A stretch of DNA of 64,000 nucleotides from the NCBI GenBank assembly GCA_030998225.1, contig JAPYXD010000696.1, forward strand, positions 744,001 through 808,000, given 5' to 3'. The notes under the pieces were generated by a model. It had not been told where the DNA came from, made no database searches, and was given only the letters and a program-made list of their open reading frames with translations. Shown here piece by piece: positions 30,167 to 62,994 of this stretch (position 1 is its first letter; every line of letters starts with the position of its first letter). Source of the DNA: Diplolepis rosae (Eukaryota > Arthropoda > Insecta > Hymenoptera > Diplolepididae). The translations under genes and the position numbers were made by a program.

Positions 30167-30711
30167 TATTGATTATTCCTATAGTGGGAGAGCATTCATG
30201 TTTTCGTGGATCGGCACGTACCTTGCTACTCGATGGATCGGCACGCGTCTGGCAGCAGTGTCATTGACCATACTTGCTGACAATCGCGTAAATGCATGAA
30301 CTCGCGGCGCGTTCCCACACAGGTCATACTATCGGGATCAAAGTTCATTCACGCTCAATGCGGTACATCTTTCTCTTGTCTTTTCAGCTATGCTACATAA
30401 TATGTATATGTTGACAGGTCGGTGCAGTTGTATTGAGTTACAAATGCACTGACTCATCTATTATTTTATACATTAGTTTTTAATCTTATTTTCTTATAGT
30501 ATTTATGTAATACATAATCTTCTAGCGTCTATATTTTGAAACATTATTTACGTTATCTTGCGAATCCCCAATAATGTGATTGATGTTATTGATTATCCAT
30601 TATTGGTCCTAGTGTTTGATTATTATTAATAACTATTTAACGACAATAATGAATTTTATTGTTATTTATTTTGTTAAATGATTATTAATGTTACTTATCT
30701 GATTTCCTACA

Positions 30712-30772
30712 TTACCGACGGCAAGGCAGTGTTCTTGGTCTATGCAACTCGACTGCCTTGTCGGTCTCAGAT
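30712..30772 (-). promoter_or_regulatory. U3 hairpin
   Basis: ACCGACGGCAAGGCAG and CTGCCTTGTCGGT form a roughly 13 bp stem with a small bulge and a 23-base loop. The same hairpin is present in the other LTR (about 44535-44595). Possible protein-binding or RNA-processing element. Confidence 0.5.
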
Positions 30773-30905
30773 AATTTCTGACAGGTGTTTCCTACTATCA
30801 GTGTTGTAATGAGGAGACATGTATCAGTTATATCCCTGAGCGTTTACAGAGTTGCCTAGGCACAGGCGAGAGGAATTAAAATTTTAAAATATCAGGGATG
30901 TAACA

Positions 30906-30918
30906 GTCCTCCCTTCTT
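30906..30918 (-). other. Polypurine tract next to the 3' LTR
   Basis: Minus-strand AAGAAGGGAGGAC immediately precedes the LTR start TGTTACATC. Its position and purine content fit the primer for plus-strand DNA synthesis and fix the element's orientation. Just upstream lies a hairpin (30925-30942, 7 bp stem ATCATCG/CGATGAT). A near copy of both lies at 33913-33949. Confidence 0.85.
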
Positions 30919-31173
30919 AGATTAATCATCGTCCCCGATGATAATGTTATTTATTTATCTTCCCCTTTTTCCTTTCAGATTTAATTAATTAATTTAATTA
31001 TTATTATTTTTTTTTTATTTTTAATTTACTTGGCTATGACAACAGGAGAGGCACCGCGTCGGTTTCGAATTCCAAGTGATATTAATTTCTGTCTCTTGCT
31101 GGATTGTGTATTTCTCGTGTAATTGATCATGTGTTGTGTCTATAGTGAACTTCTGATTCTCGGATTGACATAG

Positions 31174-31294
31174 GTGAGTATGATTCATCCTTGATTCTTA
31201 ACTTATGTTTCCCTGGATTGTCGTTTCTTTTTATTTTATTTTCTTTTTTTTTTTTTTTTTTTATTTTCTCTCTTCTTGTTTTGCATAGGTAAGT
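31174..31294 (+). promoter_or_regulatory. Donor site and recursive-type splice point of antisense gene
   Basis: A strong donor ATAG|GTGAGT lies at 31173/31174. At 31236-31288 a long T/C-rich tract ends in TTTTGCATAG followed at once by GTAAGT (31289-31294). A polypyrimidine tract-AG|GTAAGT junction is the form of a recursive splice site. It could equally be an ordinary acceptor of a leader exon. It lies upstream of the first coding exon candidate. Confidence 0.35.
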
Positions 31295-31349
31295 TTTAAC
31301 GTCTGTCATCAATTTTTGTGTGGCTGGGCAGCTGCTCTTTTGTTTGAAG

Positions 31350-32075
31350 ATGCGTTACTTCATTAGTTCTTTTAACATCATGGCAGGACAAGCTTCATCA
31401 TCCAGTGGTTCCCGGACGATTCCTTACTCGCAGTGGTACCTAAACAACGCCCATGAGGCCAACGATTTGACCATGGATCGTGGAGAACTTCGACCTCACG
31501 GTGAGTTTTTAATTTCTTTGAGTCATCAGTTTTTGTGATTGTTGGTGGGGTGTTTTCGTATTTAATAGGTCTTCTGGGTTGGGTCTCTTACATTTCAGTG
31601 CGCGATGTCTGAACCCCGTGAGAGTAATTTCCGTTCCGTGTTAATCGACGAGTGTATCTCGGGCCAGTCCTCTTCTTGCCTTACCGGGTCCGATAGTCAA
31701 TTTTATTTAGATAATTTTGATTGTAACTTATTTGAATCGGGTCCATCTTTTCCGGATCATTCCCGCGGTACTCTGTCTACTCTCCCAGTAACTGAGAGTT
31801 TATCGTCTCGGATTTCCGCGCTTGAGGATTCAGCGGGGATACATCAGTTTTTTGTTTGGCGTGTGCCGGTCTGTCGAGTTGTTCCGGTGCTCGTTTCGTT
31901 GGCAAGGGAGCTCCTTGGATTATCGGTGACGGACTCGGATTTCTGTATTGTTCATCGATTGAAGAAATCTTATAACGGGGTGTTAATCCGCGTTTCTTCT
32001 GGTAAAATTAAGGATAGTTTTCTTGCTCAGCGTTCTATGCTCGCGCTAAGGGGTTGTTTTGTTGATCTCGCGTAG
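31350..32075 (+). CDS. Antisense cassette gene, 5' exons (exon 2 FP/L1-ORF1-like)
   Basis: Two exon candidates on the strand opposite to the provirus. Exon 1 has ATG at 31350 or 31380, encodes a Ser-rich start and then SRTIPYSQWYLNN, and ends at a good donor (CACG|GTGAGT, 31500/31501). Exon 2 starts after TTTCAG (31598), opens with ATG at 31605 and encodes 156 residues. Residues about 85-150 (WRVPVCRVVP, LARELLGLSVTDSDF, HRL, VRVSSGKIKDSFL) resemble the baculovirus FP / L1-ORF1 type nucleic-acid-binding fold. A donor GC|GTAGGT (32071/32072) would remove the terminal TAG. Joining exon 1 to exon 2 at these sites meets an early stop, so exon 1 may be a leader ORF. The function is not recognised. 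Confidence 0.5.
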
Positions 32076-32153
32076 GTTAGAGTCCTTGTTCTTGTTGTGT
32101 TTCCAATTTTTAATGTATGGTGTTTTATTCTCTTTTTTTTTTTATTTTTGCAG

Positions 32154-32909
32154 ATTCCTATCAACGGGCTCCGCAGGTTCCTGCTCCAGGGTTGCTGAGG
32201 CAGGTGTCGAACCTGGTGGATACCCTGGTGCCCTGGGTACGACTGATGTGGTTCCTTATCCAGGAGCGACAGGTGGGTCCACCAGAGGCCGAAGAGGGTC
32301 CGTCCTGGCGCATTCCTGCGTCAACTGCAGATCCATCTGCTATGGAGGCGGCATCGGCGGATCATGTGATTCGTGAGGCGTGTCAGGAGACCTATAATCT
32401 CTGTGAGGAGCTTCATAGCATGGTGTCACGGGATATCTCGCCCTTACCTGCTCAAGCGTCTCGTTGCTGTTCTCACTCAGCACCCTCAGCTTATTGTTTG
32501 GGGTAGGTTTGCCTAATTTCATCCTCTTTCTTTTTTGTTATATATTTATTATATTTTTCTTCTTGTTTTTCTCTTCCTTTGATTAATCGATTTTATCTTA
32601 TTTTTCAGGATACAGGGCACTGAGGAACGTTTTTGCCGGTGTGGGCGATTCATCCGGTTACCACACTCGAGAGACGTCACGAGATGCACCTGTGGCTCGG
32701 CTCTGGTGTCCTATGAAGGTTAGTTTTTTTTTTCCTTGGTTCTTATATTTATTTCCTTTTTTAAATTTTTGTCCTGAAGATCTTTTATTAAAATTTTTTG
32801 AAATTTTGTTTCAGCTCCTAGGTCCGTGGTTGTATATCGCAGGCGTCCGATCCTGAGGGGTTATCGTCGGGTTCCAGCTCGTGGAATGCCATACCTGCCT
32901 CGCGTGTGA
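32154..32909 (+). CDS. Antisense cassette gene, 3' exons with CxC...CxC zinc motif
   Basis: Three exons fit GT/AG borders and one continuous frame: 32154-32502 (acceptor TTTTTGCAG, donor GG|GTAGGT), 32609-32718 (acceptor TTTTTCAG, donor GAAG|GTTAGT) and 32815-32909 (acceptor TTTCAG, TGA at 32907-32909). Phases agree at both junctions. The first encodes a helical-looking segment (LLRQVSNLVDTLVPWVRLMW, later CQETYNLCEELHSMV). The second carries a zinc-ribbon-like CRCGRFI...RCTCGSAL. The third is an Arg-rich basic tail (YRRRPILRGYRR). The link to the upstream exon at 32071 does not keep this frame with the first acceptor; a downstream AG near 32200 would. The product is unknown; nuclear or nucleic-acid binding is an inference. 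Confidence 0.65.
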
Positions 32910-33065
32910 CGTGTTTTTGTGTATATTTTTGTATATATATATATATATTTTAGTGTATATGTATCATTAGGCGTAATTATATGTTGTGTGTTTTGTTTAT
33001 TATGTATTTTTAATGTGAGCTTGTGTGTGAGTGTATTTCTTTTTCTGTTAGATGTTTATTTTACC

Positions 33066-33071
33066 AATAAA
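33066..33071 (+). terminator. Poly(A) signal of antisense gene
   Basis: AATAAA 157 bases after the TGA of the last exon. An imperfect inverted repeat (GAGATTAGTGAAATTGG at about 33099 with its complement near 33155) follows just downstream. Confidence 0.5.
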
Positions 33072-33109
33072 TTTTATGTTATTCCAATTGAAATGGGTTG
33101 AGATTAGTG

Positions 33110-33912
33110 AAATTGGTCCTCCGATCAATTTGTTTTTGCTTTATTTTGGCAGTAATTTCACCAATCTCAGGAATTTTTTCTTGATTTTTGTTTTCCTCAA
33201 ATCCTTCTCCTGTCATTATTAGTGTTAGTTTTGTCAAAAATTGCTTTATCAGCAAGTAAATTTTTATATCTACTATTTCAATTTCTTTTGCTGAGAATTT
33301 ATTTTTATTTTAATAGTTAACTAATTGGAATTCTCTCGGAATTTCTGATTCAGGTCTTCTCATTTCTTATAATTGATTATTAATCATTATTATTAAAACC
33401 TATGAATTCGTGAAATTTAAATATTTATTCATAACACTGGTATTCTAATTTGGTCATTCTGATCAGGAACTTGCTAGTTTAGTATTAATATTGATCCTTT
33501 TTGATTTTCTGAATTTCACCTAAAATTATTAATAATTTTTAATAATTGAATTGCGAGTTTCTGATCAGGAATACATAACCTTCAATCTGGTTGGTGACGA
33601 TGATGGGCATGATTGTCATCTTGTCGCTTCCATTGCCATTGAGAGGTGTATCGTTGCTCTTCATCTATTCTGCGGTGTCAGGTTACATGCTCGGTGCCAT
33701 ACTGCTTCTTCGTATGATTATTTCTCGCGCTAGCCATTTTGTCGGGAGCGGCTTATCTCATTGAGGTAAGTTTATCCTGCTGGACTGCGTAAATGCTTCG
33801 CAGGTTAATCTAATTACAGGCGTCGCTGACTGGTACTGTAGAGTTCTTTCATTTTTATTTATTTTTTGATGAAAAAATTTTTTTTTTTTTTTTTTTTTGT
33901 ATAACTTTCCGT
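33110..33912. other. Remainder of the antisense cassette
   Basis: AT-rich sequence between the antisense poly(A) signal and the inner PPT, with a T run at 33875-33898. No convincing ORF. Confidence 0.4.
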
Positions 33913-33949
33913 GTCCTCCCTCCTTAGATTTGTCAGCGTCCTCGGTGAC
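33913..33949 (-). other. Second (inner) polypurine tract with upstream hairpin
   Basis: Minus-strand AAGGAGGGAGGAC (33925-33913) copies the PPT at 30906-30918; AATCTAAG[A/G]AGGGAGGAC matches at 17 of 18 positions. Upstream of each lies a hairpin with a four-base loop: GTCACCG AGGA CGCTGAC here (33932-33949), ATCATCG GGGA CGATGAT there. One stem pair has changed on both sides. It lies 16 bases after the env stop codon. Confidence 0.7.
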
Positions 33950-33964
33950 ACAGGAGGTGGTATT

Positions 33965-35935
33965 TTAGGCAATTCGGATATTTCTAATTGGAAATTTAGT
34001 AGTTTCTGTTTGTAATCGAATTTCGGGGATGTTTACTGGCTGTAAGTATTGTAGTTCTCTTGGTGCCTCTTCCTTTTGAGGGGTTCTTTTTGGGTTTTTT
34101 AAACATTTTAGGATTGGATTTTTTCCAAAATAAATCATAATTATTGTTACTATGATTATTATTGCACTAGATCCTCCTGTCCAGTATTTATTATGTAATT
34201 GTTTATTAAAATTTTGTTCTTCGAATTCTGTCAATTGTTCCTCTATGGTTGAAAGTGATTCGTCTGTGTGTAGCCTTTTCCAATTTCCTATGTGAGATTT
34301 TTCCCACGTAAAAGGTTTTATTTTAGGAAGTGGTTGAATTGTGTCCAACTTTGGAAGAATTTCAGCTATATGGAAAGTAAAATTAGGGTTGTAAATATAT
34401 TCTTCTGTCCTTTTATTAATCTGAGTTCCGGTTAGGGTGGTATATTTCGTCCTTGCAGTACATCCTGTACCTAATCGGAGTAGTCCTGAATTGCTGAGGT
34501 AGCCTTTTTCCAGTTTTCCTTTTATGCAGTTGATGCTTATTGGCTCTGGATTTTTTGTTGAATAAATCCAGGCAGATAACGAAGGGATGTAGTTCCAATA
34601 CATTTCTTCTTCTATTTTCATCCTGATGTCACAAAGGTGAATGGTATCTTTTGATGGTCTTATTAACATCAAACATTCGCATGAGTTGGTTGTGGAAACT
34701 TCGTGCTTGGGCTGGGTGTTTTCACAGATGGTGTTGTAAAAGGTTTTTTGACAATTATCATAATATTCTTTGCTTACGAGAAAGAATTTTCTTTCATCAT
34801 GTGCCAGGGCAATATACGGAGTTTTTGGTGTTATATAAATAGATTCTGTTGTATTCGGAGATATTTGTTGATACACTGGATGTGCATAAATTTCATAAAG
34901 CTGATACCCTGCCTTATCTAGTAAGGGTATGTCGACGGCGATAAGCAGTCGTCCAGAGCTGATTCTAACATCTGTTTTTCCTAATTTTGATAGTTCTTCT
35001 GTTCGAACATGTAAAGTGGTTATTGGAAATTCATTTTCACTTAATTTAAAATGTATTTCGGTAATGATTTCTTGGAGTTGTTCTTTAGTGAGAAGGAGTG
35101 GATGTAACCTTTTTTCTCGTGCTGCTTCTACTATTTTTATAAATTGTTTTAAACTTTCGGCTAAGTGATTAAGTTTTATCTCAATATGGTCAGCCCATTG
35201 TCTTATTTTTCTGAAATATATGATGTTACTCCAGAATTGGTTATGCGATTCTAGGTTTTTGATGGTCTCGTTTAGTTGTTGTTGTATGTTGGCGATCTCT
35301 TGCGATTTTTGATTCAATTCTAGGTGAGTGTTGTTGATTTCTGATTTGACAATGTGGGTCTGTTTTCTCAAAATTTTGCTAAGGTTATTTTGTCTGTCAT
35401 GTAGTTCGTTGATAGCGTTATCATATTCTTCTGCGTCGTCGGAAGTCATCACTCCTATCACTGGTCCAATAATTGATCCGATAAAGCCTAATAGGGGTGC
35501 TCTTCGTTTCTGCATACTTGGGGGTGGGTTTTCTGCTTCTGGTGTATCTTGCTTTATTTCTGTTAACATATTTTTTAATTCTTCATAATTATTTTCGATT
35601 TGTTTGACTTTTCCATTCAACAGGTCTACTCTAACTTCACTTCTGCAGTCTTCTTCTAGGGATTGGTCCAAACATGTTGAATATACGTTGTTTATATCAG
35701 TTGATATGTTTTTAGATTGGAGATGAGCTTGTAGGTGCTGTGGATCCATATACACGACAATCCTCCAATATGTATTGGTAATACGCAAGGGCTCAACTTT
35801 GGCGTAAAATAGTCCAGGGTTGTTTCTCAATGGTTGAATTTCATATTGTGTTGGGGTGACTGGGGTTGCAAAAATAATGACGATCAAGATCCAGGTCCAT
35901 TTTTCTCGGCCTTGGGTGGGGTTTAGTTGGTCCAT
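33965..35935 (-). CDS. env: Envelope fusion glycoprotein (errantivirus Env / baculovirus F-like)
   Basis: An intact 656-codon frame. Residues about 14-27 form a hydrophobic signal sequence. A furin-type site QKRR (142-145) is followed by a Gly-rich fusion peptide beginning APLLGFIGSIIG, then a long heptad-rich coiled coil (about 165-275). A transmembrane segment rich in Ile (about 586-603) precedes a 53-residue basic cytoplasmic tail. This order is that of errantivirus Env and baculovirus F proteins, class I fusogens acting at the cell or virion surface. CAG lies immediately before the ATG and could serve as an acceptor for a spliced env mRNA, as in gypsy. No stops or frameshifts are seen. 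Receptor and fusion activity cannot be judged from sequence. Confidence 0.93.
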   Translation of the reverse strand: MDQLNPTQGREKWTWILIVIIFATPVTPTQYEIQPLRNNPGLFYAKVEPLRITNTYWRIVVYMDPQHLQAHLQSKNISTDINNVYSTCLDQSLEEDCRSEVRVDLLNGKVKQIENNYEELKNMLTEIKQDTPEAENPPPSMQKRRAPLLGFIGSIIGPVIGVMTSDDAEEYDNAINELHDRQNNLSKILRKQTHIVKSEINNTHLELNQKSQEIANIQQQLNETIKNLESHNQFWSNIIYFRKIRQWADHIEIKLNHLAESLKQFIKIVEAAREKRLHPLLLTKEQLQEIITEIHFKLSENEFPITTLHVRTEELSKLGKTDVRISSGRLLIAVDIPLLDKAGYQLYEIYAHPVYQQISPNTTESIYITPKTPYIALAHDERKFFLVSKEYYDNCQKTFYNTICENTQPKHEVSTTNSCECLMLIRPSKDTIHLCDIRMKIEEEMYWNYIPSLSAWIYSTKNPEPISINCIKGKLEKGYLSNSGLLRLGTGCTARTKYTTLTGTQINKRTEEYIYNPNFTFHIAEILPKLDTIQPLPKIKPFTWEKSHIGNWKRLHTDESLSTIEEQLTEFEEQNFNKQLHNKYWTGGSSAIIIIVTIIMIYFGKNPILKCLKNPKRTPQKEEAPRELQYLQPVNIPEIRLQTETTKFPIRNIRIA

Positions 35936-36220
35936 TCTGCTACTGGATGATGCTGCGTATCAGAAAATATATATAAGTACTTTTCAAGATAGGTTTTATT
36001 TAATCTTATCCCTTTACTCTGTTAAATTACTGTATTGTTGAGTTTGGGGTTTTTGATTTATCAAAATTAAATTTTATGATTTTAATATATTTTATTTTGA
36101 TCATTTTGAATATTCTACATGTGGTTACAGGGTCTATAGGTGTTATTATAACATATATATGTATTGGATATTATGCCTATTACAATGTGTTTATTAAAGT
36201 TCGAGTAGTGTGTGAGACAT

Positions 36221-36814
36221 TTATTGAGTGATATAAATTAAATTTGGATTTTTAATGTTATCTACAGGATCCCAAAAATCTTCTTCCGTAACAGTGTAAT
36301 TTTCTTTAAAATTTTTATTACGTTTTATTATTCTTGAACAATTTTCTACTTTATGTCCTCGTAAATAACAATATTCGCAACATTGTTCCCACTTATATAG
36401 CTTAATGAGCATCCTACTTTCTTTGTCTTGACACGAAACAAAAATATCTTCTACTTCATTATTAATATTTCGCTCTTCGCTAAAATAATAATTATCCTCT
36501 AGTTTTTTTAGAATTTTCCTTGCTGCCTCATGTTCAGCATTTTTAAGTTTGTTTTCGCCATTACTACTTTCTGAAAAAATCTTATTACGTTTACAATCTT
36601 TTATAGTGCATGATGCGTAAAAGGTCCTATTATGAGCTGGTCCTTCTGACATTATTAGGATATAAGAGGGTTTGGTAAATCCGTATTCGGCTGATAGCTC
36701 TTCCAACGCTCCCTTTGGATTCTTGAGGTGTTCCACATCTCCTTTGGGATGTATGTATGTGGGATAGATTTGTCCTCTGGGGAGTGGTGAGTCCAATGTT
36801 GTGAAACCAGACAT
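36221..36814 (-). CDS. dsRNA-binding-domain plus zinc-knuckle accessory protein
   Basis: A 197-codon intact ORF between pol (stop 45 bases upstream) and env (285 bases downstream). Residues about 32-106 follow the dsRBD pattern: an N-terminal helix with NPKGALEELSAEYG, the strand PSYILI then SEGPAHNRTFYASCTI, and a last helix KNAEHEAARKILKKLE. The usual GxGxSKKxAK stretch appears as NGENKLKNAE. A CCHC knuckle follows (C146, C149, H154, C159). Gag of this element shows no such knuckle. dsRBD proteins of unrelated insect viruses bind dsRNA and suppress RNA interference, so a silencing-suppressor or RNA-packaging role is an inference. Known gypsy-type errantiviruses are normally described with gag, pol and env only. 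Expression probably needs splicing or reinitiation. Confidence 0.8.
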   Translation of the reverse strand: MSGFTTLDSPLPRGQIYPTYIHPKGDVEHLKNPKGALEELSAEYGFTKPSYILIMSEGPAHNRTFYASCTIKDCKRNKIFSESSNGENKLKNAEHEAARKILKKLEDNYYFSEERNINNEVEDIFVSCQDKESRMLIKLYKWEQCCEYCYLRGHKVENCSRIIKRNKNFKENYTVTEEDFWDPVDNIKNPNLIYITQ

Positions 36815-37905
36815 GTGCTTCCTATAATAAGAAGACTATTAGTTTTTAATATTAAGTGATTATTCGTAAGCTATTTTGAGTTTGTCTACGTGTTTTTGGT
36901 ATAGGGTTTCGTTTTTGTCTTTCAAAATCGCTGTGTGTTTATCCAAGAGTTTAATAATTTCGAAAGGTCCATAATATTTGCTGTCTAATTTACCGTGTGT
37001 TTTTACTTCCTTTTGTACATAGACTTTATCTCCTACTTTTCCAAGGAACGATCTTGCTTTAGCGTCGTAATTTAGTTTGGAGTTTTGTTTTGCTTTTATC
37101 AAATTGTCAGCTGCCATATTTTTAATTTCTGTTAATCTGCAGATTAATTCTTGTAAATATGAGCCATAGGTCTCTAATTTTTCGTAATTGGGGAATGAAC
37201 TAGGGGTACGGGCTATTTTTCCGAACACTAATTCGAATGGGGTGAATATTGTCGCACTGTGGACAGATGTGTTGTAAGCAAACATGGCGAAGGGTAGCAG
37301 TTGATCCCAGTCGTCATAGTTTTCTGCATAGGCTCTAACATAATCCATTAGTACGGCATGGCTCCTTTCTAGTGAACCATTAGATTGTGGTCCATAGCCT
37401 GAGGTGGTTATTTGTTTTATTCCAAATATTTTTGATAAATTACTCAATAGGTTGTTCAATAATCCTTTTCCTTTATCGGTGAGAATTGCCTTTGGTGCTC
37501 CATACTGAGAAATAAGGTTTTTTGCTAATGCATGGGCTATTGTTGCTGCTGAGATGTCTGGAATTGGTACTGCTATGCAGTATTTTGAAAGGTTGTCCTG
37601 CATGGTTAATATGTGCTTATTGCCGTCTGGGGTGGTTGGTAATTTACCTACAGTGTCTAAAGAAACTTTATCAAAGGTATCCAGGGGTGTATCTGTTATC
37701 AACATGGGTTCATGAATTTTGGCTCTTACAATTTTTTGTTCTTGACAAATTTTGCATTTTCTTACAAAATCAGTGACTTGTTCCTTGATTCCTCGCCAAA
37801 AGTACCTTTCTCGAATTATTTGGTACGTTTTGTTAACTCCTTTATGGCCTCCGATCTTACTATTGTGGTTTTCAGAAATTATTTCTAGACGTGACCTCTC
37901 AGGGG

Positions 37906-38326
37906 GTGTACTTACATTTCCGTAACACATACTTATCTTTATATTACTGTTTTCAAACTCGTTGATTATCATTTTGAGCAGTTCTTCCTTCGTCAGGTCG
38001 TCTGTCAAGTCTCCTTGTCGCGAAATACGAAATTCGGTGATGTTTTCTCTGAATAGGGCCACTCTTAAATTATGGAGGGCTGTTTGGAGAATGGTTTTAT
38101 CTATGTTGTCGAAATGTCGGTTTTTTATTATCAGTGAATATACATTATATTGTCCTCTGGGGGTAATCAATACTTCTCCTGTTTTTGGCTGTTTAATTTT
38201 TAATTCCTGTGGGTCTATTGCTCCAATGTCGATTAGTAATCTTCCTACAGGGGTGGTTACTTCAACATCCGCAGAAAGAAAATGTACATAATTATTCCTT
38301 AAATATGTTAAGTTTTCTCTGCAGCT
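37906..38326 (-). other. Macro-like domain between RNase H and integrase
   Basis: About 140 residues: NYVHFLSADVEVTTPVGRLL, then KTGEVLITPRGQYNVYSLII, an amphipathic helix (LQTALHNLRVAL), NITEFRISRQGDLTDDL, a helix and IKISMCYG. The order of elements matches TARG1-type (OARD1) macro domains. The loop that in active enzymes is a Gly-rich PxIGxGL type is altered here to ISRQGDL, so ADP-ribose binding or hydrolysis may be lost. The copy in gypsy element 3 is closer to consensus in that loop. Confidence 0.6.
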
Positions 38327-38329
38327 AAG

Positions 38330-39640
38330 AACTTTGGAGTTTGTCGTAGGGGCGTTTGAGCTACAACCGGTGGGTAATCCTGGAGGGATGCTGGTGATAA
38401 GCTTAGAAGTGTTTTTAGTCTTGTCATTATGTGTGTTTTCAGAGATTTTTTCCGAAAATTGAGGAATTTCCATGTCCATTCTGCGTGGCTTGTATCTAGT
38501 GGATGAAATTACTGTATTGGGGTGGTCTTCTTTATTACTTGAATATGGGGTTGATATCGCTTTAGGTTGTTTGAATGTTGAAGGACTAACGTTTGCTAGC
38601 ATGATGGGTGTTGCATGTATCTCAGGTCCAAAAGTTACGCTTTTCCGGGTCCGCAGAGGTGGATTGGGGGTAGGTTGATCTTCTTCATCAGAAGATGGGA
38701 TTCCGGGGTCCAAATTTTCCTTTGTTTCTGGGTTCACCTCCTTTCCCATTTTTTGTGTTTCTTTCATCAATTTCTGTGCTGTTTCAATTGCTGTTTTAAT
38801 TCGGTTATCAAATTCAGTTTCACTTTCTGGTTCTAGTTCTTCAATGGCTTCTAGGAGTTCCTGATTGTCTTCTCCTTCCGAAACGGCTGTGATCTCGAGG
38901 ATAGGGGCATCTTTTTTAGTGTTTTCTTTGTCTAGCCAATTTTCGCGAGCCTTTAAAGATTTTTCAAACAATAAAAATGAGTTTTCCAGGCTCTCTTTTG
39001 ATGGCTTAGGTTTACTTTCTTCTGTATGTTTATTGTCATCATCACTAGGACTATCTTCACTATCGCTTATAGGTGGACTCACGATTTTTATAGGTCCTTC
39101 TTGTTGTTGTACTGTAAGAATTGGTTCTTCTTGTTCCTCAAAAGGGAATTCAGTTTCAGCCTGTGGTACATTTGCTGGGGCACTTTTAGGTATGGTTGAG
39201 GGTGGATAAGCTGCGGGGGGTAGATCTAAACTGGGTAGTAAACTTTTTCTTTTTCGCAGAATTGGAGGTGGTTCCAAGTCTTTTTCTGTATCATCAGAGC
39301 TACTGTCTTCTTTATAGTCAGGTTTTATCTGGACTCTTTGTTCTTCTGCTCGTCGACGGATCAGGCGTTTACTGATGGTACTTTTATCTACTTCTGCTGT
39401 AGTAGAAGTACTGGATTTAGATCGAGATAGAGTGGGGTTGGGCTGCTTCGAAGTAGATGGGTTTGAAAGTTCACCCTTTAGCTTCGCTCCCTTTCTGGTG
39501 AAAATTGAGGGCTTGTTCAGTAGGCCAGAGACTGAGGTTTTTGTTTGAGGTTTAGTGCTGGATTCTATTTTTCTAGACTGTCGAGTGAACATTGGCATTA
39601 TTCTGGTGGGTAATTCTTGTATCTGTTTTAATGCTGCTGC
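38330..39640 (-). other. Long disordered acidic Ser/Pro-rich linker in Pol
   Basis: About 435 residues of low-complexity, charged text (clusters such as DSSSDDTEKD, SDSEDSPSDDD, SSDEEDQP; basic patches KRLIRRRAEEQR and LRKRKS). No catalytic motif. Such an insert between RNase H and the integrase-side domains is much longer than the usual short tether of gypsy Pol. Confidence 0.7.
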
Positions 39641-41787
39641 GTTATTTTCTACTCGATTTCGAGACAGGGCGTCGGAATTGATGTTTAGTTTGCCCGGTTT
39701 ATACTTAAATGTGTATTCGTAGTCTTGTAACTTTAAGCGCCATCGAATCAGTCTTTGCCCTGGGTCCTTGACTGAGTCTATCCAGTTTAGTGGCTCATGA
39801 TCGCTCATAAGAGTGAATTTTCTTCCATACAAATAGGGTCTGAATTTTGCTATTGCATATAACACTGCTAAACATTCTTTTTCAGTGGTTGAATAATTTA
39901 ACTCGGGTCCAGTTAGCGCTCGTGATAGGTACGCTATTGGTAGGTCCATATTTTGGACTTCTTGGCTTAATACAGCGCCAATTGCGAAACCTGATGCATC
40001 TGTTGTTACTATAAATGGTTTATTAAAATCTGGATATTGTAAAATAGGGCTATTACATAGGGCTTGTCTTAATATTTTGAAACTTTCTTCTTCTTCTTTT
40101 CCCCATTTAAATACTGCGTCCTTTTTCAAAAGATTCGTTAAGGGTTTTGCTATTGCGGAGAAGTCTTTTATAAATCTCCGGTAGTATCCTGCTAGCCCTA
40201 GGAACTATTTGATATTTTTAGGGTTCTTGGGTTGCGGAAAACATTGTACAGCCTCGATCTTCTTTGGATCGGGTTTTACACCTTCGCTGCTAATGATGTG
40301 ACCCAAGTAAGCTATTTCTTTAAATAGAAATTCACATTTTTCGGGTTGCAGAGACAGGTTTGCTTCTTTTAATCGTTTCAAAAGTCTTCTTACCTTTTTT
40401 CCGTGTTCTTCTAGATTGTTTGCGTATACAACTATGTCGTCTAGGTATACGAATAGTTCTGTTCCTTGCAGTCCTATTAACACTTGATCCATTAGCCGTT
40501 GGAATGTGGCTGGTGAATTTTTTAATCCCATGGGCATTCTGACATATTCATAATGCCCATTTAATGATGAGAAAGTTGTCTTAGGTCTGTCCGCAGGGTC
40601 TAGTTCTATCTGGTGAAATCCACTCGCAAGGTCAAATACTGAAAAATATTGGGCCCTACCTAAATGATCAAGAATTTCAGAAATATTTGGCAGAGGGTAA
40701 GCATCGCCAATCGTCTTTTCATTGAGAAGGCGGAAGTCGATCACTATTCTCCATTTTCTTTTTCCGGTGTGGTCCAATTTTTTAGGTATAATTAGTAATG
40801 GAGAGTTGTAGGGTGACTTTGAATTTTGAATGGCTCCTTCAGTTTTCATTTTAGTTATGACGCGTTCTATTTCTTCTTTCTGAGCTGGTGAAAACCGGTA
40901 AGGGCGGGTGTTTATCGGTATTTCGTCTGATGTATGTATTTTATGTTGTACCAGATGTGTAGAGGTTAGTGGTTCCCCAGGCAGATAAAAGCTATCTGGA
41001 AACTCTCGCACTATTTCTATAACGTGCTCCTTTTCTTCTTGATTGAGATGATCTAACTGTAATTTGTCAATTACTTCCTCTATTTTGCCTCTTTCACATT
41101 TGAAATTTTCAGCTAAAAAATATTCGTCTGAATCTTCTCCTGGTAAATTATAATATTCGAAGGGTATTAATTCTTGTGGGGGTATTTCAATGCTTAAATC
41201 TTTTTCAGTTGTGTTGATTGCTAATACGTGGCAAATTCCGTTTGCGTTTGTTACAGCTGCTTCACCCACTAGTACTCCTTCTGTAGTTTTAATTAAGGGT
41301 AGATAACCTTCTTTTAATTCTGTATTTGTGACTTCTACGGGGATTACTCGTTTAGTTCTGGCTTTGATCTGGATAGGTCCTAATGATGTCCCTTTGTAGC
41401 CTTCCATATTTTCCTGGGCTATTTTGGATTCTTCGTCTACAAATGGTACAGGTTTGGTTGGGTTGGAATGAGTGACGATTGTGTTGTGCCAAAATGAAAT
41501 CTCTACCTTTTCTTGTCGGAGGTATTCTCTTCCTAAAATCCCGTCGGTGTTGATAGGAAAATCTGGTTCTGTGACGTGAAAGGTCACTATTGAGTTTTTA
41601 ATTTTTATTTGAACGGTTCCAAGGGTTGAAATCTTATTCTGGGTTATACCAGCTATTTCAATTGCTTCATTGTGTGATACCATTATGTCTTCGTCGAGTG
41701 AGCTTAGCTTAATTATGTTTACGTCTGCTCCAGTGTCAACTAGTAATTGGGCCTTGTTTTCTTTAAAATTGGGTGAGCTGATCTCTA

Positions 41788-42912
41788 CTACTGGTGATTC
41801 TCTCCTAAATTTTGTGCACAGGACTTTCTTTGCTGCATTAATATCCTCACACTGCTTTGACGCTCTTTTTGGTCTGTGCTCGTCGTCGCGTCCTCTCGGC
41901 GAGCAAGGCTGGAGTTTAAATGTTCTGTCTTTGATGGAGATGGGGATGGCGTACGAGGGGGGTTGGTGGGGTTCGTATAGGGGTAGTTAGGGTTTGGATA
42001 TGGAATAGGGTGATTTGGGTAATAAGGATATGGTTGATAGGGTGGATAAGGGGGGTATGGATAGGGGTGGGGGAAACTGCTGGGGTAGTTTTGTTCTGTT
42101 GGGAAATGGTTTCGTCTATTTAATCTAGGTGAATTTTGCCTATCTTCATTGGGTCTATTTCTTTCTGGGGAGGCCGCAAATCGGACATGCGGACTAGGGC
42201 TGCGATCACGCATTCCTGAATATGCAGGTTGAGCAAAATTTCTGTCATAAAAATTATTATGTGGGGATTGAGGGTTTAACTGATGTCTTGATTCGTATTC
42301 TATGGCATATTTTAGAGCTGCTTCTATTGAATTTGGATTTCGGCTTTCTACTGCTCCTGAGAGTTCATCTGGAAGTCCACGAATAAAAGATTCTAACGCA
42401 CAATCGTTGAGAGGAGCTAACAATAGATCCGCGTTATCGTATTTATCTTCTAGTGCGGCTTGCGCACCAGATTTTAATAATGTAAGGCGATCGTAGTATT
42501 CACTTACACTTTCGTTACGGGTCATTTTGATGTTCGAAATTTCGTGTGTGTACCAGGTATATGACTTGTGAGGAGCAAACCGTTGTTTGAGGTGGTCAAT
42601 CAAGTCCTTCATGGAGAAAAAACTTTTTCCGTGTGTGCTGTCTCTTGCTGCTCCTTTTAGTCGGGAGAGAACCGCCCTGATATACTGTTTTTCACAGTTG
42701 GCAGGTATGCTGGCTTCTCCGTTTATCACGTCCTGAATAAAGTCTCTTACTGGCATATTTTTACCATTAAATATCGGCACATTCATTATGCCTTGTTGAA
42801 TAGCAAAACATTCTGCCATGGATGTTACCATTGCGTCGTTTAAGGTACGTGAGATGTCGCCGGTAAAATCGGTTGCTCCGGTCTTGTTTGATCGAATGCT
42901 GTCTTTGGGCAT
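41788..42912 (-). CDS. gag: Gag polyprotein
   Basis: An intact frame; the first ATG gives a 408-codon ORF from 43014, but the ATG at 42912 (MPKDSIRSNK) is a plausible start too and is used here. Residues after the start contain a retroviral capsid-like region (FNGKNMPVRDFIQDV; an AVLSRLKGAARD segment; FIRGLPDELSGAVE). The C-terminal third is rich in Tyr-Pro-Asn repeats (PYPPYPPYQPYPYYP) and Ser-Pro. There is no CCHC knuckle, as in several errantivirus Gags. It overlaps pol and ends at TAG 41790-41788, seven codons past the slippery site. Confidence 0.88.
   Translation of the reverse strand: MPKDSIRSNKTGATDFTGDISRTLNDAMVTSMAECFAIQQGIMNVPIFNGKNMPVRDFIQDVINGEASIPANCEKQYIRAVLSRLKGAARDSTHGKSFFSMKDLIDHLKQRFAPHKSYTWYTHEISNIKMTRNESVSEYYDRLTLLKSGAQAALEDKYDNADLLLAPLNDCALESFIRGLPDELSGAVESRNPNSIEAALKYAIEYESRHQLNPQSPHNNFYDRNFAQPAYSGMRDRSPSPHVRFAASPERNRPNEDRQNSPRLNRRNHFPTEQNYPSSFPHPYPYPPYPPYQPYPYYPNHPIPYPNPNYPYTNPTNPPRTPSPSPSKTEHLNSSLARREDATTSTDQKERQSSVRILMQQRKSCAQNLGENHQ
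41806..41812 (-). promoter_or_regulatory. -1 ribosomal frameshift heptamer A AAT TTA
   Basis: In the gag frame the text is A_AAT_TTA, an X_XXY_YYZ heptamer, placed so that a -1 slip enters the open pol frame (AAA TTT AGG). The gag stop lies 16 nt downstream and the protease DTGA codons about 70 nt downstream. I did not find a strong pseudoknot by eye. Confidence 0.75.
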
Positions 42913-43089
42913 GTTGATGGTTTTTTTTAAACGCTTGAAAATTATCAATGAGTGCTCTGAACTGGCACTATTATTATGTTTGATGTAATCTCGACGTCTG
43001 TATTTAATGCTCAATCCAAATCTCTATTTTTGGAAATTTATGGGCCTAAAATTGAATATGAATTACAAGTTTACCTTTATCAATTTTGT

Positions 43090-43440
43090 CTATTTGACTA
43101 AATCCGGAATAGGAAGATTCAATTTAGAAATAAAGGATTTTCCAATTACTCCTGCGATACCTGTACCTTTTTCGTGTTTAATTATGTTGAATTTAATTGA
43201 ATTACGCAAAATTGGGATTTCTACTGATCCTACTGTTGAAAGAGTGGCGTTATGTAGTATGTAGATTTTTAAATGGTTTATTTTGACTTCGGGGTTTATT
43301 TTATCCTTTTGGATTAAATTGATATTTAGTGTTGGACCGTACAAGAAATCTCCTATTTTATTTCTTAATAGGTCAGAATATACTGAAATTATAATATTGG
43401 TTTGATGTTTTATTATTATTTGAGTTTGGTTAGTTGTCAT
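43090..43440 (-). CDS. Small ORF resembling a retropepsin without catalytic Asp
   Basis: 116 codons on the provirus strand, upstream of gag. FLYGPTLNINLIQ occupies the place of the DTGA active-site strand, and TVGSVEIPIL...GIAGVIGKSFI matches the flap and C-terminal GILG-type part of the element's own protease. Asp and Gly of the active site are not in register, so activity is unlikely. It could be a captured protease paralogue with a structural role, or a relic of another element. Confidence 0.5.
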   Translation of the reverse strand: MTTNQTQIIIKHQTNIIISVYSDLLRNKIGDFLYGPTLNINLIQKDKINPEVKINHLKIYILHNATLSTVGSVEIPILRNSIKFNIIKHEKGTGIAGVIGKSFISKLNLPIPDLVK

Positions 43441-44054
43441 ATAATGTAGACAACTTTATTATTATTATTTTGTATAACAATCGATTTGAATTTCAATTTG
43501 TTTTTGTTAAAGAATTTACGCTGTAGTTTTAACGCACTGTCGATTTTGATCGCGATGTATGCAGGTACTCTACGTTCTTAGCCTTGAATGCTATGATTTC
43601 AGTGATGCAAAGGGGGTCAAGTCAGACGTATTTAATATTCGCCTGAGTGAATTTTACACCTGTTATTTTAATAGTTGTTTAAGAGAATTAACAAAAATTA
43701 TTTTGAACGATATGAAATTGGACAAGTTAGATTTAATGAAAATGCGCGAACAATTCTGACAATTATAAAATTTGTTTATTGCTAACAAATAACAGAATTG
43801 TTTATTTTTACAGAATTTTAGTGATGTAAGATTGGACAAACTAGACTCAAGCACAATTTTTGGACAATCTTCACATTCAAATATATTCTGTTAGTTAAGT
43901 AAGTTGAAAATTGCAGTTTATAAACAATACAATACGAGCACTTCAAATTTTGCCTTACCCAATGATCGAAATCACTGGTGACCGTTCAACGTACCTAAAA
44001 AGGACTTATACTCTTGAAGGCTGTTTTTTGTTTGTATTAAACTCAATCTAAAAT
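43441..44054. other. Sequence replacing R/U5 and leader of the 5' LTR
   Basis: 614 bp with no similarity to the matching part of the 3' LTR (30231-29123). No primer-binding site or promoter was found. It lies where the end of the 5' LTR and the tRNA primer site should be, so it marks a rearrangement. Confidence 0.6.
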
Positions 44055-44728
44055 GATGGATCGGCACGCGTCTGGCAGCAGTGTCATTGACCATGCTTGC
44101 TGACAATCGCGTAAATGCATGAACTCGCGGCGCGTTCCCACACAGGTCATACTATCGGGATCAAAGTTCATTCACGCTCAATGCGGTACATCTTTCTCTT
44201 GTCTTTTCAGCTATGCTACATAATATGTATATGTTGACAGGTCGGTGCAGTTGTATTGAGTTACAAATGCACTGACTCATCTATTATTTTATACATTAGT
44301 TTTTAATCTTATTTTCTTATAGTATTTATGTAATACATAATCTTCTAGCGTCTATATTTTGAAACATTATTTACGTTATCTTGCGAATCCCCAATAATGT
44401 GATTGATGTTATTGATTATCCATTATTGGTCCTAGTGTTTGATTATTATTAATAACTATTTAACGACAATAATGAATTTTATTGTTATTTATTTTGTTAA
44501 ATGATTATTAATGTTACTTATCTGATTTCCTACATTACCGACGGCAAGGCAGTGTTCTTGGTCTATGCAACTCGACTGCCTTGTCGGTCTCAGATAATTT
44601 CTGACAGGTGTTTCCTACTATCAGTGTTGTAATGAGGAGACATGTATCAGTTATATCCCTGAGCGTTTACAGAGTTGCCTAGGCACAGGCGAGAGGAATT
44701 AAAATTTTAAAATATCAGGGATGTAACA
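44055..44728 (-). repeat. Truncated 5' LTR (first 674 bp of U3)
   Basis: Essentially identical to 30905-30232, with one difference seen (A at about 30271 versus G at about 44094). It ends at GATGGATCGGC, beside a short direct repeat GGATCGGCACG present twice in the other LTR (30207 and 30236). TATA, R and U5 are missing, so normal transcription from this end is not expected. Confidence 0.85.
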
Positions 44729-61892: not shown

Positions 61893-62400
61893 TAGAACTT
61901 GTGACGAGACTTATACATCGGAATCAGAAGTTTCTTCTTTCAGGGAAGGTGACCTTCGAGTATAACTACGTAACATATAGTGAAGATAAAGTTTTTATGG
62001 GTAAAGGACACCTAGTACATTTCGAACATGCGCAATGCGAAATAAACTCATAAGGCAATAAAAACCTGGTAAATAAAAACTTGTTGGAAATTGAGGATTT
62101 GAGAAAAGATAACTCAAAGCCCGGTGACGTACTTACGTTTATCCGAAATGGTCGATATGTCTTCAGTCTCATTGTAAAAGATAAGCAAGCTGATAAGGTT
62201 GATATCAATATCATTTCGGATGTTGTTCAAGCATGGAGAAATGCCATTGTTACCTTGGGTGTGAAAATTGTTAAGGTCTCTAGTGTAGGGAATGGTCTGG
62301 AAGATCTTTCCTGGTCAACAGTTGAACAGGTATTCAAACAGCATTTTTTGAATACAGGTCTCTTCATAATAGTATGTTCAGTGGAGGTGATTATTCCTCC
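61893..62400 (+). pseudogene. pol: Gypsy element 3: macro-like domain
   Basis: Frames 61893-62053 and 62081-62400, separated by a stop at 62051-62053. MGKGHLVHFEHAQCEIN, then KPGDVLTFIRNGRYVFSLIV, then a helix, VKIVKVSSVGNGLEDLSW and a last helix plus FIIVCSV reproduce the element order of TARG1-type macro domains. GNGLEDLSW keeps the Gly-x-Gly-Leu loop that binds ADP-ribose in active relatives. It continues straight into integrase. Confidence 0.65.
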
Positions 62401-62994
62401 TGTAAATCAAAGAAAAGAAATTATTAAAGAATTTCATGAATCTGTGGTAGGTGGTCATAAAGGTGCGTCAAAAACTTATTGGAAGATAAGGTCAATTTAT
62501 TTTTGGGAAAACATGAAATCAGACGTACAAAAAATCGTTAAAAGTTATAAGAATTGTCAGAGGAATAAGCACGTTAGGCAAGGAAATCGTCAGCTTATGC
62601 TTATTACTGATACTCCCAAACAAACCTTTGAAAAAATTCAAATAGATATGGTAGGACCGTTACCGGTCACAGTTCGAAAAAATGCTCACATTTTGACAAT
62701 TCAATGTGTATTCTCAAATTATTCCGACGCTTATCCACTTCAGAATACAGATACAGTAACAATAGCACAGGTCCTAGCTGAGCAATTCATCACTCGCTAT
62801 GGTTGTCCATAGATTATACATAATGATCAAGGGGCGAATTTTATGAGTCAGATAATAAAAACCTTCTGTAAAATTTTCAAAATTGAGAAAATTCAATCAA
62901 CTGCTTACCACCCTCAGAGTTTGGGTTCTTTAGAACGTAGTCATCAAACTCTAATCGAATATTTTCGCCACTTCCAAAATAATCAGAATTGGGA
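62401..62994 (+). pseudogene. pol: Gypsy element 3: integrase, truncated by mariner
   Basis: HHCC-like finger (FHESVVGGHKGASKTYW; the CxxC appears as SYKNC, so one Cys is lost), core with IDMVGPLP, HNDQGANF and LGSLERSHQ supplying the three acidic positions. A stop occurs at 62810-62812. The sequence ends where the mariner relic starts; the C-terminal domain is missing. Confidence 0.85.

Follow-up and report, generated by a model that had tools for sequence, protein, structure and literature searches.

The window analyzed here is a 64,000-nucleotide stretch of the Diplolepis rosae genome (assembly GCA_030998225.1, contig JAPYXD010000696.1, positions 744,001 to 808,000). Its minus strand carries a provirus of approximately 14.5 kb with the order leader-gag-pol-dsRBD ORF-env, in which an intact open reading frame (ORF) of 197 amino acids (36221 to 36814, minus strand, ATG to stop) encodes a double-stranded RNA-binding domain (dsRBD) followed by a zinc knuckle. 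The ORF does something for the virus, because selection has kept it in at least two virus lineages, and it is best explained as an accessory gene of a 'complex' lineage of env-bearing Ty3/gypsy (errantivirus-like) retroviruses. We favor the tentative reading, which we put a little short of an even chance, that its protein may antagonize small-RNA silencing by the host.

The dsRBD fold of the 197-amino-acid protein is real. Residues 33 to 105 (36500 to 36718, minus strand) matched Pfam family PF00035 with an E value of 1.9e-9 and a score of 38.4 bits, above the cut-off of 23, and the best relatives of known structure in the sequence comparison were TARBP2 and Loquacious (Loqs). The AlphaFold model, built from 14 aligned sequences, shows the α-β-β-β-α order with block means of the predicted local distance difference test (pLDDT) of 73 to 92 over residues 31 to 110, and is mostly poor outside them. 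In Foldseek and VIA structure comparisons dsRBDs ranked at the top, and those of TARBP2 and Loqs were among the top structural matches. These methods agree with an earlier note on this DNA, which had recognized a dsRBD from the letters of the ORF. RNA-binding and protein-binding dsRBDs tied in the structure comparison, and therefore the fold does not say to which type the domain belongs. The CCHC knuckle that the note placed after the dsRBD was also found, as CX2CX4HX4C at residues 146 to 159 (36338 to 36379, minus strand). It is the sole CCHC-type knuckle in the scanned gag, pol, and env regions, and its residues are conserved among intact copies of the ORF (C146 in 51/51, C149 and H154 in 49/51 each, and C159 in 50/51).

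Other copies of the ORF are numerous in the host genome (757.7 Mb), where at least 150 scored matches emerged from 1882 candidates. Near-full-length matches fall into family A, with approximately 72 to 100% identity, and family B, with approximately 44 to 52%. The family-B copies examined have the same gag-pol-dsRBD-env order, so in both families the ORF stands as a gene of its own between pol and env, as the earlier note had proposed for the provirus. The identity between the families was 76% for reverse transcriptase, 77% for integrase, 53 to 67% for pieces of gag, 49 to 50% for the dsRBD ORF, and 49 to 53% for env. The divergence of the dsRBD ORF is env-like, unlike that of reverse transcriptase and integrase. 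Three further proteins from a public database (P0018, P0020, and P0022) share the layout and are 47 to 54% identical to the ORF; no related locus was confirmed in the viral and genome contig collections.

The copies used for the selection test were mostly picked among stop-free matches and give no measure of how often the ORF is intact. Sixty-one copies were fetched. Nine failed the intact filter, three of them (L066, L070, and L072) solely because the match began at residue 9 to 12, and L027, fused by a deletion, was removed before the selection and residue counts. This left 51 intact copies (27 A and 24 B), a set that does not include the window copy. In deep pairs, those with synonymous divergence (dS) above 0.15, the mean ratio of nonsynonymous to synonymous divergence (dN/dS) was 0.21 in family A (154 of 351 pairs) and 0.20 in family B (176 of 276), values to which no significance is attached, as the pairs are not independent. 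The ratio in deep pairs was 0.20 in both families for the dsRBD alone and 0.17 (A) and 0.15 (B) for the knuckle and tail. Four pairs read in shifted frames as a control gave 1.0 to 3.4. The ratio for the whole ORF was higher, with means of 0.57 in A (167 pairs) and 0.38 in B (91 pairs), in near-identical pairs (dS of 0.1 or less). This pattern is that of a gene selected during the spread of the element and then decaying in place after insertion. A dN/dS below 1 across copies was what the earlier note had named as support for a function. Ratios between A and B were discarded because synonymous sites are saturated, and only within-family values were used.

The association of the gene with env was evaluated at 72 env loci identified with PF12259. 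When these were paired with 147 of the at least 150 dsRBD places, at least 40 proved to have a dsRBD ORF upstream in the same orientation, and the spacing to env is 313 to 756 bases in 39 of the 40. Upstream sequence was inspected at 16 of the remaining 32 loci: 3 have a degraded B-type gene, 5 have deletions or other sequence, and 8 belong to a sister env-bearing lineage, designated D, whose integrase is 54 to 60% identical to that of family A. None of the eight lineage-D copies examined has a match to the dsRBD gene within 1.5 kb upstream of env. The gene has therefore been gained or lost at the level of lineages. A CCHC scan of two lineage-D copies found no knuckle in Gag, and the idea that the knuckle moved from Gag to the dsRBD protein is unsupported, as lineage D has neither in the copies examined. 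Lineage D (L110-L117, L118, and L119) has two pre-gag ORFs of its own, of 104 and 134 amino acids, in two copies, and an ORF upstream of integrase at L112:199-465 has what looks by eye like an RNase H1 motif and may encode a second RNase H. Separately, the env copies at L102-L105 lack an intact pol upstream and are possibly deletion derivatives that retained env.

Conserved acceptor- and donor-like signals make it probable that the dsRBD protein is translated from a spliced message, in the way of retroviral accessory proteins. The AG of the predicted acceptor (36822 to 36823, minus strand), with a pyrimidine tract and the form AG/GA, lies 7 nucleotides before the ATG of the ORF. The tract and AG are retained in 50 of 52 intact copies from both families, and both exceptions are deletion copies; sequence further upstream hardly aligns between A and B by eye. 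Branch-point-like ACTAA(T/C) is present near the acceptor in many copies. The predicted donor, TGG/GTAAGG, lies in a conserved block of the leader (GT at 43957 to 43958, minus strand) and occurs in 18 of the 22 leader stretches examined, from both families. A candidate acceptor for env (AG at 35953 to 35954, minus strand) was picked by eye.

In the mechanism that we favor, splicing of the leader donor to the acceptor just before the ATG would yield an mRNA for a small RNA-binding-type protein, with a dsRBD like those of Dicer partners and a C-terminal zinc-knuckle region. This protein would bind double-stranded RNA (dsRNA) or small interfering RNA (siRNA), engage dsRBD proteins that are partners of Dicer, or both, and host silencing would be blocked. 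RNA binding and function are inferred here from the fold and from known proteins, and an action against RNA interference (RNAi), as proposed in the earlier note, is plausible from the fold and from analogy with the iridovirus protein 340R. For example, the dsRBD is nearest by sequence to those of the Dicer partners TARBP2 and Loqs, and the nearest viral model is an invertebrate iridovirus DRBM protein (Foldseek E value of 9.8e-6, but a root mean square deviation of 14.9 over 162 columns). Also consistent with a silencing antagonist are the splice-type acceptor and donor that both families retain for this separate ORF, the purifying selection on it, its env-like divergence between A and B, and its absence from all eight lineage-D copies examined, a distribution often seen for accessory genes.

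Several observations weigh against an antagonist of silencing. KKxAK is the canonical RNA-contact motif of dsRBDs and is also visible in the TRBP alignment. Its fifth position is Glu in 51/51 copies of the ORF, nearly all of which read [LI][KR]xAE, and so the canonical patch is not present. The GPxH loop is kept in family A (P59 and H61 in 26/27 each) but in none of the 24 family-B copies, and the dsRBD has a median net charge of +5 in A but is nearly neutral, at +1, in B. The family-B domain is still under selection despite these eroded RNA contacts, and therefore protein contact would be the likelier route to silencing there. The tie between RNA-binding and protein-binding dsRBDs in the structure comparison does not help either. 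In one A-B pair the knuckle and tail were 57% identical versus 48% for the dsRBD, and this better conservation would also fit a general RNA-handling role. Junction patterns for both families gave no sign of a retroposed spliced copy in the genome: the B pattern had no match, and the single match to the A pattern, with two mismatches, was rejected because the surrounding sequence resembles neither the leader nor the ORF region. PIWI-interacting RNAs (piRNAs) are not made from dsRNA. Env-bearing gypsy elements are described as piRNA targets (PMC13172572, available part). In the part of the 340R study available to us, mutation of K89 abolishes suppression of siRNA-induced RNAi, and K86 and K89 both matter (PMC4231766). 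K89 is probably the counterpart of the fifth-position lysine of KKxAK, judging from the K86/K89 spacing rather than from an alignment.

It is possible, although we lean against it, that the protein instead handles the element's own genomic RNA in the manner of Rev or CERV, binding unspliced RNA through the knuckle and a dimerizing dsRBD and aiding its export, translation, or packaging. A candidate target is a conserved leader hairpin (43810 to 43891, minus strand), found in 17 of 18 leaders. The position of the hairpin, immediately 3' of the predicted donor, means that it is expected in unspliced RNA only. RNAalifold gave a fold of -17.2 kcal/mol from 10 of 11 distinct sequences, and the z scores of three sequences were -2.2 to -3.0 versus mononucleotide shuffles, but covariation is weak, which counts against such a role. 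The pattern used to find the hairpin missed L079, and L096, which has a deletion, was excluded from the fold. Family-B leaders have further hairpin-like units after the conserved one. Within the ORF, conservation is highest in the knuckle and tail, in line with RNA handling, and CERV of the element Cer1, which is made from a spliced mRNA, is described as needing a Cys loop to export genomic RNA (PMC10309623, available part). However, the eight lineage-D copies examined manage without the dsRBD gene, two of them also without a Gag knuckle. The earlier note had offered packaging of genomic RNA as an alternative on the grounds that Gag lacks a knuckle. The CCHC scan bore out the lack, but the notion that the dsRBD protein stands in for Gag in packaging is weakened by the two knuckle-less lineage-D copies that have no dsRBD gene.

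A less likely alternative, which we consider improbable, is that the domain resembles type-B dsRBDs, no longer binds dsRNA, and makes the protein a partner or adaptor, either of Env or Gag or, outside silencing, of a dsRBD protein of the host. The altered RNA-contact residues in a family-B domain that stays under selection would be consistent with an adaptor, as would the interaction-type dsRBDs that tie with RNA-binding ones among the top structural matches. However, GPxH is kept in family A and in the database proteins P0018 and P0022, and nearly every copy retains a basic residue at each of positions 89 and 91. A functionless passenger ORF, a captured fragment carried along, might be suspected from the absence of the gene in the lineage-D copies examined and from the interrupted pol of the window copy, but this is contradicted by a dN/dS of approximately 0.2 in both families versus 1.0 to 3.4 in shifted frames, as well as by the conserved acceptor, and is most improbable.

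The provirus has all of the features of an env-bearing, errantivirus-like Ty3/gypsy element: long terminal repeats (LTRs), gag, pol in the order protease, reverse transcriptase, RNase H, integrase, and a fusion-type env. All are on the minus strand. The 5' LTR (44055 to 44728) and 3' LTR (30232 to 30905) differ at 1 of 674 bases, and therefore the insertion is recent; no clear target-site duplication or primer site was found. The gag ORF (41788 to 43014, likely ATG at 42912) matched Pfam Retrotrans_gag and has no CCHC motif. The pol region (36860 to 41683), identified from the ORF list, Pfam, phmmer, and BLASTP, is split in the window copy by an in-frame stop into two ORFs, which encode protease, reverse transcriptase, RNase H, a macrodomain, and integrase. 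The env gene (33965 to 35935, 656 amino acids) encodes a Baculo_F-type fusion protein (PF12259, E value of 4.1e-48). The stretch of about 3 kb between env and the 3' LTR (30906-33964) is part of the element in 3/3 other family-A copies checked, is unmatched in two family-B stretches, and has antisense ORFs at 31605-32506.

Two further additions accompany the dsRBD gene. Between RNase H and integrase, pol has a TARG1/OARD1-like macrodomain (37850 to 38380, minus strand; phmmer matches to 2l8r and 4j5r, E values of approximately 2e-5). The same macrodomain occurs in a second, different gypsy-like family at 62081-62812 on the plus strand (E value of 1.1e-6 in a PDB search); Pfam gave no macro match at either region. 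A literature search confined to top-ranked papers yielded no mention of a macrodomain. Upstream of gag is an ORF of 116 amino acids (43090 to 43440, minus strand) that is open in 18/18 donor-bearing leaders, three of which are truncated where the fetched sequence stops; leaders with the ORF are L077-L079, L081-L083, L086-L094, L096, and L031. Its A-B identity is 58 to 63%. A BLASTP match to the element's own pol protease (E value of 0.002) hints weakly that its product is protease-like, and by eye the DTG of the protease seems to match DPx in the pre-gag ORF. The ORF had no Pfam match, and its AlphaFold model had a pLDDT of 33.

Taken together, the macrodomain, the pre-gag ORF, and the dsRBD gene hint at a lineage of retroviruses that carries several additional functions. 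A broader proposal, which we regard as unlikely as a whole, is that insect Ty3/gypsy elements include 'complex' lineages with a lentivirus-like accessory set, in which a spliced dsRBD-knuckle protein would antagonize silencing, the TARG1-like Pol macrodomain would possibly counter host ADP-ribosylation, and the pre-gag protein would be protease-like. The dsRBD accessory gene on its own suggests that the retroviruses of insects, too, can be of the complex kind that has spliced accessory genes. Transposable elements are among the main targets of small-RNA silencing, yet a dedicated silencing suppressor is not known to us from any LTR retroelement; if the favored reading is true, this would be the first. 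The question of a suppressor is directly testable, because one genome holds both env-bearing lineages that have the gene and a sister lineage whose examined copies lack it. A dsRBD gene in an LTR element was not found in a literature search of top-ranked papers, which did not take in the main survey (Chary & Hayashi 2025, eLife 108449).

In their gag-pol-env order and Baculo_F-type env, the proviruses resemble errantiviruses such as gypsy and ZAM. The differences are the added dsRBD gene, Pol macrodomain, and pre-gag ORF, set against the plain gag-pol-env plan described for errantiviruses. The host proteins TARBP2 and Loquacious have several dsRBDs and no knuckle. Their dsRBDs are the closest by sequence and among the closest by structure, but are 13 to 33% identical to that of the ORF in structural alignments. 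Env of env-bearing Ty3/gypsy elements is described as typically spliced (PMC12992720, available part).

Accessory ORFs in LTR elements are already known, from the available parts of two reports. LTR elements of bdelloid rotifers have an extra non-env ORF3 after pol that is said to use spliced messages, but it encodes a GDSL esterase or DEDDy exonuclease rather than a dsRBD (PMC5408684). CERV of Cer1, an LTR element of Caenorhabditis elegans, is likewise an extra protein translated from a spliced mRNA and has a Cys-rich loop that possibly binds RNA, but it is large, has no similarity to retroviral proteins reported in the part available, and functions in genomic RNA export (PMC10309623). Among the closest known parallels is 340R of the iridovirus IIV-6. 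As described in the available part of its report, 340R has an N-terminus of 30 amino acids, a dsRBD of 70, and a required C-terminal region of 73, suppresses RNAi, and blocks both Dicer-2 processing and siRNA loading (PMC4231766). By sequence, the ORF has the same layout of one dsRBD with N- and C-terminal flanks, and both are small stand-alone viral proteins with an N-terminus of approximately 30 amino acids. The two differ in that 340R belongs to a DNA virus, that the part of the report available to us mentions no knuckle in it, and that 340R has K86 and K89, whereas the ORF has Glu at position 5 of KKxAK.
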